DNA of 64,000 bases from Acidobacteriota bacterium (GTDB taxonomy: Bacteria; Acidobacteriota; Blastocatellia; UBA7656), in contig JBFMDH010000003.1 in NCBI GenBank assembly GCA_040754075.1, positions 326,307 through 390,306 of the forward strand, written 5' to 3'. Shown here piece by piece: positions 1 to 9,778 of this stretch (the first letter of the stretch is position 1; each line of letters opens with the position of its first letter). Both the position numbers and the translations under genes were made by a program. The notes beneath the pieces are model-generated. The model worked only from the letters and a program-made list of their open reading frames with translations, did not search any database and was not told the origin of the DNA.

Positions 1-106
1 CATCGAGCAGAAACCTCGACGGTCGCAAGACCTTGTGAGTTCAAATCTCACCAAAAGCCCAGGCTTTTGTGGCGAAAATAAGCAAATGCCTTTCAAACTT
101 GCGCGG
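1..106 (+). ncRNA. YrlA-like Y RNA, unit 1 (left end cut by window)
   Basis: A structured RNA whose 5' part lies outside the window. Visible are a hairpin with a 7-nt loop (3-19), a short arm closed by GCAA (21-32) like the long variable arm of class II tRNAs, and a T-arm (stem 35-39/47-51, loop TTCAAAT). Next comes a 3' acceptor-like strand (52-59) whose complement (62-69) lies only two bases downstream, followed by a Leu-type TGGCGAAA D-arm start. The tRNA 3' half therefore precedes the 5' half. The unit ends in GCCTTTCAAACTTGCGCGG (88-106), also found in unit 2. Bacterial Y RNAs of the YrlA type carry tRNA-like modules and are encoded near Ro60 genes; a Ro60-like gene starts at 1345. The YrlA name is inferred from structure and context. 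Confidence 0.6.
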
Positions 107-122
107 GAATTTCGATATCTGG

Positions 123-198
123 AAAGTAAAAAGTCAAAAGGCAAAAGTAAAAACCTATTGCGGTAACTTTTTATTTTTACCTTTTAACTTTTTCTTTC
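123..198. repeat. Heptamer (STRR-like) inverted repeat, GGCAAAA/AAGTAAA type
   Basis: The left arm is built of AAGTAAAA, AGTCAAAA and GGCAAAAG steps and the right arm of the complementary TTTTTATT, TTTTACCT and TTTTAACT steps, so the element can fold into a long imperfect hairpin. It fills the spacer between RNA units 1 and 2. The same architecture recurs across the window with other heptamers. Confidence 0.75.
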
Positions 199-202
199 GC
201 AT

Positions 203-346
203 CGCGTCTGCGCCCTGACCCGCAAGGCTTACATACTGGTAAAAACCAATCTCCAAAATTGGTCATGTAGGTTCGATTCCTATCCTGCCCCGCCAAATTT
301 ATGGGGCAGCTTAAAAAGCACAGCCTTTCAAACTTGCGCGGACGCG
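203..346 (+). ncRNA. YrlA-like Y RNA, unit 2 (complete, Trp-tRNA-like insert)
   Basis: The ends pair: 203-208 with 341-346, 221-226 with 333-338, and 224-229 with 322-327 as an alternative inner helix. Inside are a perfect 5-bp anticodon-like arm (246-250/258-262) with loop CTCCAAA, which would read as a Trp CCA anticodon with T33, a T-arm (267-283) with loop TTCGATT, and an acceptor 3' strand CTGCCCC (285-291) followed by G and CCA. The matching 5' strand GGGGCAG (303-309) lies downstream, so the tRNA-like domain is circularly permuted and its acceptor stem is closed by an 11-nt loop. The outer helix would be the Ro60-binding stem by analogy with Y RNAs. Covariance searching with the YrlA model would settle the class. 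Confidence 0.7.
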
Positions 347-358
347 ATTCGGCTTTGA

Positions 359-440
359 AGAGGTGAAAAGGTGTAGAGGTGAAGAGGTGAAGTCATGGGG
401 TCGTGATTCACCCGTTCACCCCCTCACCCTTTCACCTTTT
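359..440. repeat. Heptamer (STRR-like) inverted repeat, AGGTGAA type
   Basis: Four AGGTGAA/AGGTGTA-like steps on the left are matched by TTCACC and CTCACCC steps on the right, giving a long imperfect hairpin around a central GGGGTCGTGATTC. It lies in the spacer between RNA units 2 and 3, in the same relative place as the element between units 1 and 2 but with another heptamer. Confidence 0.75.
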
Positions 441-450
441 CGTCATTTTT

Positions 451-576
451 GCCGCGCCCCAACCGGTAGGGCATACATACCCCACCAAAACAACCAACGA
501 GGTGCGTGTAAAGGGAAACATGCTGCAAGCCTGAGACCTGATAGCAGGCAACAAACTGCCCTTTCAACTTGCGCGG
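451..576 (+). ncRNA. Y RNA-like unit 3 (same scaffold, no tRNA-like domain)
   Basis: It shares the array's outer sequences: a start related to unit 2 (GCGCCC, then GGC-WTACATAC) and the end CTTTCAACTTGCGCGG. The ends pair as CCGCGC (452-457) with GCGCGG (571-576), then GGGCA (469-473) with TGCCC (557-561). The interior differs from the other units: it has no T-loop or acceptor repeat and instead contains a hairpin GCCTG/CAGGC (529-533/545-549). It may be a Y RNA without the tRNA module or a diverged copy. Whether it is transcribed cannot be judged from sequence. Confidence 0.5.
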
Positions 577-582
577 TAAGTA

Positions 583-740: not shown

Positions 741-1221
741 ATGCTGGATACTATTGCAGTCACAATCGAACCGGTGGATACGATTAACACCACAGAGCCT
801 TATCATGACACCAGCGAACTCGAACGCCTCATTGCGGCATTTGAAGCCTGTTCCTTGCCAAAACCCAAATGGACACATCAGGCGCATTTGATGGTCGCGC
901 TCTGGTACAACCTCCACTACGACCCGGAACCGGCACTCAATAAAGTGCGTGAAGCGATTTTAGCGTACAACGCAGCCACCGGCACACTACAAACACCGAC
1001 CGGCGGTTATCACGAAACGATGACGATCTTCTGGATGTGGGCAGTTCGCGCGTATCTTGCAGGCGCAAACGAAAAGACTTCGATAGTTGAATTGGCAAAC
1101 GGACTATTAAGGAGTAAATACGCCGAGAGAAAATTTCCATTTGTATATTACAGCGCCGAACGCTTGTTTTCGTGGGACGCGCGAACCGCGTGGATGGAAC
1201 CGGATATAGGACCATTGAAAT

Positions 1222-1223
<2 letters not shown>
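741..1223 (+). CDS. Conserved hypothetical protein, 160 aa
   Basis: I do not recognise this family by name. The ATG at 741 follows AAAGGAGAAACCC, a good ribosome binding site; upstream in-frame codons fall inside the repeat element and are unlikely to be used. The protein is soluble, mostly helical in appearance, and has no signal peptide. A conserved-looking block W-T-H-x-A-H-L near residue 50, followed by a Gly-Gly-Tyr-His-Glu-Thr block near residue 95, suggests a metal- or substrate-binding site, but that is only inference. It sits between the Y RNA-like array and the Ro60-like gene, so it may act with them or may be a chance neighbour. Repeat elements separate it from both sides. Confidence 0.8.
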
Positions 1224-4281
<3,058 letters not shown>

Positions 4282-9052: not shown

Positions 9053-9778
9053 ATGGAAAGCGCATCCGTACAAGTTAAAGAAGAATTTTCAGCCAATCAA
9101 CAAACCCGGAATATGATTCAACTCGAAAATATTGAAAAGGTTTATCGCACCTCGAAGATTGAAACCGTGGCGCTCAGCAACGTCAACCTCGCGGTCAAAG
9201 AAGGCGAGTTCATTTCGATTATGGGACCATCCGGTTCCGGTAAAAGCACCCTACTGAATGTCATAGGCTTACTGGACGCGCCAAGCGGCGGCAAAGTGGT
9301 TATCAACAATAACCGCATCACGTCTTATGCGGATCGCGCACTGGCGCGGGTTCGCAACGAGGAAATCGGTTTTGTCTTTCAAACTTTTCACCTGATCAGC
9401 GACCTGTCAGTGGTTGACAACGTCGAACTGCCTTTGCTCTACCGTCGTCTGTCGAATGGCGAACGGCGCAAACACGCGCTCAAGGCGCTGGAACGTGTGG
9501 GGCTGGCGTCGCGAGTTCACCATTTTCCTTCGCAACTTTCGGGCGGGCAACAACAGCGCGTAGCGATTGCCCGCGCCATCGTCGGTAATCCGCGCATCCT
9601 GCTTGCCGATGAACCGACGGGCAATCTCGATTCACAGATGGGCGATGAGATTATGGACATTTTGCATGACCTCAACCGCAATGAAAAAACCACGGTGGTG
9701 ATGGTCACACACGACCCGCGCCAAGCCGATAAAACCGAACGCATCGTCAGACTGTTCGATGGGCGGCAGGTGAATTAG
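9053..9778 (+). CDS. ABC transporter ATPase, MacB/LolD type
   Basis: 241 aa; ATG 9053 follows ACAGGAGAGAAG. All nucleotide-binding motifs are present: Walker A G-P-S-G-S-G-K-S (about 59-66), Q-loop in F-V-F-Q-T-F, signature L-S-G-G-Q-Q-Q-R, Walker B I-L-L-A-D-E-P-T-G-N, and the H-loop V-T-H-D. The L-A-D-E-P-T-G-N-L-D run is typical of the LolD/MacB group, which drives extracytoplasmic work by mechanotransmission rather than classic transport. It carries an N-terminal extension of about 20 residues before the domain. It pairs with the two permeases downstream and the HlyD-type adaptor upstream. Confidence 0.95.
   Translation: MESASVQVKEEFSANQQTRNMIQLENIEKVYRTSKIETVALSNVNLAVKEGEFISIMGPSGSGKSTLLNVIGLLDAPSGGKVVINNNRITSYADRALARVRNEEIGFVFQTFHLISDLSVVDNVELPLLYRRLSNGERRKHALKALERVGLASRVHHFPSQLSGGQQQRVAIARAIVGNPRILLADEPTGNLDSQMGDEIMDILHDLNRNEKTTVVMVTHDPRQADKTERIVRLFDGRQVN

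Follow-up and report, generated by a model that had tools for sequence, protein, structure and literature searches.

Why would a bacterium keep a row of small structured elements, several of them built around rearranged tRNAs, next to a single Ro60-like gene? This question is raised by a 64,000-nucleotide stretch from the genome of an Acidobacteriota bacterium (Blastocatellia, UBA7656; GenBank assembly GCA_040754075.1, contig JBFMDH010000003.1, positions 326,307 to 390,306), hereinafter the window, at the left edge of which a first-pass annotation described three Y RNA-like units with a common outer scaffold and pairing ends. Judging from sequence comparison, the locus is in all probability a Ro60/Y RNA system of the YrlA kind with an expanded RNA repertoire. 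The best overall explanation, which on balance we consider probable, if only just, is a Ro60/Y RNA system whose RNAs imitate sites of the translation apparatus and act as decoys or baits.

All elements described for the three units are present, including an outer and an inner stem, and the units are the last three of a tandem array of seven (L009:9182-10582, where L009 is the retrieved left flank and the L009 position equals the window position plus 10000); extending the search to the left added U1 to U4. The order of the locus is an array of 28 tRNA genes, an HNH gene, a gene for a 66-amino-acid protein, the seven units, an open reading frame of 160 codons and the Ro60-like gene. The units are as follows.

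U1, L009 about 9182-9337: permuted tRNA module
U2, L009:9424-9562: tRNA module entered at the D-loop, with a degenerate D arm
U3, L009:9643-9798: permuted tRNA module, with a sub-threshold match to YrlA
U4, L009:9863-9937: bare scaffold, no permuted tRNA domain
U5 (unit 1 of the first-pass annotation), L009:9953-10112 or window -47..112, + strand: permuted tRNA module, the first 47 bases of the unit lying left of the window
U6 (unit 2), window 203-347 (L009:10203-10347), + strand: scaffold and a tRNA module permuted at the D-loop
U7 (unit 3), window 447-582 (L009:10447-10582), + strand: scaffold and a non-tRNA hairpin module

A permuted tRNA-like domain with a closed acceptor is present in U1, U2, U3, U5 and U6 and absent from U4 and U7, the last being the unit already taken to lack a tRNA. 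The arm order in U5 and U6 (anticodon-like hairpin, T arm, acceptor 3' strand, short loop, acceptor 5' strand) confirms the permuted tRNA halves and loop-closed acceptor that had been proposed for these two units. The U5 module resembles a class II tRNA, with a D-loop remnant, an anticodon-like hairpin, a variable arm, a T arm and a closed acceptor hairpin; U6 combines a 7-nucleotide anticodon-like loop (CTCCAAA), a T arm and an acceptor stem closed by a short loop with a degenerate D arm. The 28 tandem tRNA genes upstream (L009:4185-8084) cover many isotypes. The genome carries 70 tRNA genes in total and, as 42 of these lie elsewhere, the 28-gene array represents a spare set; with genes beyond the housekeeping complement gathered in it, it qualifies as a long tRNA array.

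What such different units have in common is the scaffold. In the window array, the 5' scaffold (..CGCGCCCYRACnnnnnnnGCnTACATAC) pairs with the 3' scaffold (GC..CTTTCA-ACTTGCGCGG) to form the outer and inner stems. A scaffold pattern has seven matches in the source genome, all at this array. Among 58 relatives, seven of which carry a Ro60-like gene, an exact pattern yields 14 matches in four genomes, all Ro60-positive and all at the Ro60 locus, and a reversed control pattern yields zero; the three other Ro60-positive relatives were missed because the exact pattern is strict, and units were recognized there by eye. The array is not a product of chance. The order of tRNA array (26–38 genes), HNH gene, unit array and Ro60 is repeated in three relatives.

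Related loci come from Blastocatellia-type Acidobacteria and many cyanobacteria; in a scan of named genomes, 209 relatives were recovered, the best 80 of which are almost all cyanobacteria, plus metagenome-assembled genomes of Acidobacteria. A search by sequence anchors and pairing produced 377 candidates, or 351 units from 80 loci once duplicates were removed (two are coding artefacts), and one covarying two-helix scaffold (CCYNAC / nTACAYAC / ACTT) is common to the extracted units. Ten positions of the outer stem are paired in 76–99% of the 296 distinct scaffolds, compared with a mean of 43–98% after shuffling, and CCYNAC, TACAYAC and ACTT are almost invariant, a conservation that is in part by construction, because the search demanded anchors and pairing. 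This does not apply to the variety of pair types: the outer stem displays many compensatory types, up to six per position, and the 9-base-pair inner stem has support for every pair except the outermost. The outer helix is thus conserved in related genomes, as it should be if the first-pass annotation were right. The covariation largely excludes the notion that the units are functionless, degenerate tRNA and rRNA remains of a mobile tRNA array, which, given also the conservation across two phyla and the strict association with Ro60, is exceedingly improbable, even if the arrays are patchy among the 58 relatives and lie beside tRNA arrays that spread by transfer. The unusual expansion that had been suspected is real inasmuch as several different RNAs are predicted per Ro60, with a diversity beyond the original guess, but it is the rule in this Ro60 clade and not a quirk of one genome.

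The paired 5' and 3' ends form, by covariation, a basal helix with an internal loop of the YrlA type. Comparison with covariance models, the check put forward initially, bears this out in part: in the window, no Rfam family reaches its gathering score and YrlA (RF02553) has no match in the units, whereas upstream and sister units match it below the gathering score of 69 bits (U3, 36.2 bits, E = 7e-6; the sister unit L051:2442-2566, 40.6 bits over model positions 1-114). The conserved, covarying terminal helix, the permuted tRNA modules and these sub-threshold matches, the one in the sister unit being full-length, agree with the initial description of the array as Y RNA-like.

The adjacent gene, which is interrupted by an intein, also lives up to its description.

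Ro60-like N-extein, window 1345..2403, + strand: helical-repeat part and start of the von Willebrand factor A (vWA) domain
LAGLIDADG intein of 450 amino acids, window 2404..3753, + strand: between DK and SGSM of the vWA metal-binding motif
Ro60-like C-extein, window 3754..4281, + strand: remainder of the vWA domain

Sequence signatures fail on this protein: the Pfam search detects the intein with its LAGLIDADG domain and scores vWA_Ro60 at 23.4 bits, under the 27.7 cut-off, with no match to the TROVE model, and hmmsearch of the Ro60 alignment against the PDB sequences found nothing, so that only the fold comparison matched. The structure model (five sequences, pLDDT 72.7) is that of an ortholog, L021, and not of the intein-split copy. 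Its top 12 Foldseek matches are all Ro60/Rsr, over the full length (E from 5.8e-11 to 3.4e-8), the best being Deinococcus radiodurans Rsr (2nvo; TM 0.66), and therefore there is good, model-based support for a Ro60-like fold consisting of a helical-repeat ring and a vWA domain. The Ro60-like orthologs examined are intein-free and about 480–530 amino acids long.

The modules mounted on the scaffold fall into several classes. Among the 351 units, there are 110 linear tRNA modules, 73 permuted ones, 9 opened at the D-loop, 7 pseudoknot-like modules, 29 with helix 69 (H69) of 23S rRNA, 24 that join the sarcin-ricin loop (SRL) to the GTPase-associated centre (GAC), and 41 bare scaffolds. Because ARAGORN, run on doubled (rotated) modules, called only some of the permuted tRNAs, and those with wrong anticodons, the arms were parsed directly. 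The scaffold enters the tRNA at three points: the acceptor end, the junction/anticodon side and the D-loop. The linear modules follow the usual tRNA order of D arm, anticodon arm, variable region and T arm; the place of the acceptor 5' strand is occupied by ATAC from the scaffold, which pairs with a GTAT that follows the T arm. Several are called tRNA by ARAGORN and Rfam. Modules permuted at the junction/anticodon side consist of a T arm, a 7-base-pair acceptor closed by mostly 4–12 nucleotides and then a D arm, with 45 distinct closed acceptor stems among the 71 checked (the parse required 6 of 7 acceptor pairs, and the pairing percentage itself is therefore no evidence). Entry at the D-loop is seen in nine units, including U2 and U6. 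In two permuted units (L020 about 4410-4140, minus strand, and L026:3688-3936), roughly 100 nucleotides or more are inserted in the acceptor loop; the L020 insert consists of GGACTGA-type repeats.

Could these be permuted tRNA genes in the strict sense, whose RNAs yield working tRNAs after cutting and joining? The T arm, 7-base-pair acceptor and D arm are all complete, in permuted order, and U2 encodes ACCA after its acceptor 3' strand. Nevertheless, this is highly improbable: the linear modules lack a free acceptor end, the D arms of U2 and U6 are degenerate, rRNA and bare units share the same scaffold, and some anticodons are of types that bacteria do not use. The free acceptor ends and usual anticodons of functional tRNAs are not found; at the acceptor there is instead the scaffold or a closing loop, and the triplets are unusual.

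The anticodon loops of the linear modules have 7 nucleotides, with T at position 33 in 104 of the 110 (95%), and present 31 triplets. Comparison of 21 independent close pairs gives a rate of change of 0.222 per site for the triplet and of 0.045 for the rest of the module, a 4.9-fold difference; the L074 and L097 modules, for example, are identical outside the triplet (loops CTGAAGA and CTTGAGA). From these alignments, it is the module body, not the triplet, that stays conserved.

The 23S rRNA modules occur in sister loci; the seven-unit array of the window genome itself has no rRNA module. At E<=1e-4, 43 of the 351 modules match Escherichia coli and Microcoleus rRNA, compared with zero in five dinucleotide shuffles, and at E<=1e-3 all matches except one fall within the 1000s and 1900s of 23S. 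The SRL+GAC units, one of which is acidobacterial (L020:7987-8201, minus strand), begin with AGTACGAGAGG (the sarcin-ricin loop, H95), a core retained across all aligned units, and contain the GAC, the H42, H43 and H44 pairings of which are rebuilt in the consensus fold with double changes at 16 of 46 pairs. The H69 units comprise H69 and the TAAGGTAGCGA that follows it; by eye, their end resembles the stretch of 23S that precedes H69, which points to a permuted fragment of domain IV. Sequence and helices of 23S sites are thus reproduced in the sister units. Independently, the Rfam large subunit rRNA model matches over positions 1093-1148 (E 2e-12) in the Microcoleus genome, at a distance of about 13 kb from the Ro60 locus there. 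As to the pseudoknot-like class, U7 belongs to a family of seven units with conserved hairpins, including cyanobacterial ones (window 447-582; L026, L038, L054, L066, L073 and L094), in which, by eye, the 5' strand could pair with the second loop (CTCCA/TGGAG, CCC/GGG, CCTA/TAGG). The module was observed to consist of three hairpins on the shared scaffold, with apparent loop pairings; the one from a relative has no Rfam family match.

Mimicry of rRNA is known from the leader RNAs of ribosomal protein genes, and the modules could likewise bind ribosomal or tRNA-binding proteins and regulate them or the Ro60 operon. The bare scaffolds, which in cyanobacteria often lie directly upstream of the Ro60 start codon, would fit such autoregulation, but the units are multiple, full-scaffold genes mostly far from that codon, and we regard this explanation as unlikely.

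The explanation we favour proceeds from the shared scaffold. The product of each unit is most likely a small RNA, and the two-helix scaffold is predicted to be the Ro60-binding site by which all of these RNAs would be anchored to the protein. The domains left free would imitate sites of the translation apparatus: two permuted tRNAs and a pseudoknot-like domain in the window, three further permuted tRNA units and a bare scaffold upstream, and linear tRNAs, H69 and SRL-GAC in sister loci. The common denominator of tRNA, H69, GAC and SRL would be the ribosomal A site and the factor-binding site. Ro60-bound RNAs may then divert RNases, other toxins or factors that recognize tRNA or ribosomal sites under translational stress, alongside the adjoining accessory tRNA set. 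Decoys or baits are favoured because the free domains appear to copy sites recognized by tRNA-binding proteins, translational GTPases and attacking RNases, and because the scaffold covariation, Ro60 co-occurrence, rRNA matches, retained U33 and 7-nucleotide loops, accessory tRNAs and published precedents point the same way. Such a role against an anticodon nuclease has already been suggested for YrlA (PMC7790460), and the tRNA array of the cyanobacterium Anabaena, cited here for its induction alone and not for any Ro60 unit array, is induced by translation inhibitors (PMC10272220). A decoy or bait role of Ro60-bound RNAs is a serious possibility that falls just short of probable. More tentatively still, a Ro60-centred stress system might stock RNA replicas of vulnerable sites (varied anticodon arms, H69, the SRL-GAC chimera) that absorb or sense translation-targeting toxins, phage weapons or antibiotics.

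Several observations weigh against decoys. The flanking spacers of the close pairs differ too, so neutrality, not positive selection, may account for the rapid change of the triplet; many triplets (A34 types, CTA, TTA) are unlike those of usual bacterial tRNAs; 56 of the 351 units fall outside all module classes; and a tRNA array is found in only about 16 of the 86 fetched loci, whose flanks are limited. Furthermore, known bacterial Y RNAs, in which the basal helix binds Ro60 and the other domain serves an effector, are described as tethers and not as decoys; that of Deinococcus tethers PNPase (PMC7790460, PMC8394870). The main, close rival follows this precedent: each RNA would use its tRNA- or rRNA-like domain to connect Ro60 with an effector of its own, such as PNPase, a modification enzyme, a translation factor or ribosomal protein L11, and one Ro60 would gain several activities, for instance the breakdown of damaged tRNA or rRNA. 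The modular build of the scaffold, with its exchangeable domains, is in keeping with this idea, which alone leaves unexplained both the variable anticodon triplets and why the ribosomal sites chosen are ones that translational GTPases bind; we deem it a credible, if less likely, possibility that can coexist with a decoy role.

Among the neighbouring genes, the conserved 160-amino-acid protein, to which no function is assigned, recurs in 37 of the 86 related loci and in most cases immediately precedes the Ro60-like gene.

Conserved protein of 160 amino acids, window 741..1223, + strand

Other neighbours in these loci are the 66-amino-acid protein (69 loci), a 288-amino-acid protein (37), a ThiF/E1-like protein (34), HNH (12) and a vWA protein (11). 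The 66-amino-acid protein has a predicted beta-beta-alpha-beta-beta fold, a C-terminal glycine and a ThiF-type neighbour, and shows no significant Foldseek match; from this model, it and the ThiF/E1-like neighbours may possibly form a ubiquitin-like pathway. At L021:9204-14794, this protein (with an invariant C-terminal EAVYG) and ThiF/E1-like, vWA and 288-amino-acid genes surround Ro60. An uncultured 595-kb phage (L109; LR756511.1) encodes a 46% identical Ro60-like protein together with 66-amino-acid, 288-amino-acid and ThiF-like genes, and it has several tRNA genes as well; no instance of the present scaffold was seen in this phage. The spacers of the array contain REP-like inverted repeats (of the AAAGTAAAAAGTCAAAAGGC and GAACGATGAACGATG types, for example; window 120-200, 355-445, 585-730 and 1250-1325) from families with dozens of copies in the genome. 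The microRNA matches on such intergenic repeats, obtained with Rfam at permissive E-values in the window, are due to chance.

The set of mimics would give a direct handle on the role of bacterial Ro60 and Y RNAs beyond one nuclease tether. Each module would name its partner: EF-G, EF-Tu, L11 or ribotoxins for SRL+GAC, H69 binders, and tRNA-binding proteins or anticodon nucleases for the tRNA modules. Ro60 would also be linked to accessory tRNA arrays of the kind that one cyanobacterium turns on under translational stress, and the scaffold, compact and modular, would lend itself naturally to the display of RNA domains. Y RNAs with a permuted tRNA-like domain are already known (YrlA); Ro60-linked RNAs with linear tRNA modules or 23S sites appear to be new, no report having been found in a literature search that did not cover the papers defining YrlA and the Anabaena array, with priority accordingly unproven.

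How, then, does the locus compare with known systems? As with ribosomal protein leader RNAs, a small RNA would imitate an rRNA protein-binding site, but the imitation is mounted on a Ro60-type scaffold, and a single RNA combines two separate 23S sites, SRL and GAC. With the long tRNA arrays of mycobacteria, archaea and Anabaena (trn operon) it shares 28–38 extra tRNA genes and an HNH gene. According to the available parts of the sources, TROVE and HNH genes are on record within tRNA arrays (PMC6333295, PMC5966550), with a TROVE gene in 20 of 29 archaeal tRNA clusters (PMC6333295), whereas Y RNA-like units and tRNA or rRNA mimics go unmentioned in those parts. The Deinococcus system of Ro60 (Rsr), Y RNA and PNPase has the same protein fold and an adjacent Y-type RNA; it differs from the present locus, with its many RNAs per protein and, in this copy, an intein in the vWA motif. 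Closest is YrlA (RF02553), in which the ends form a basal stem, the permuted tRNA-like domain has a loop-closed acceptor without a free CCA end, and the gene adjoins a Ro60 ortholog, as it does here; the present family departs from it in its seven tandem units, three tRNA entry points across the clade, units without tRNA, 23S rRNA sites in sister units and scores that all lie under the family cut-off.
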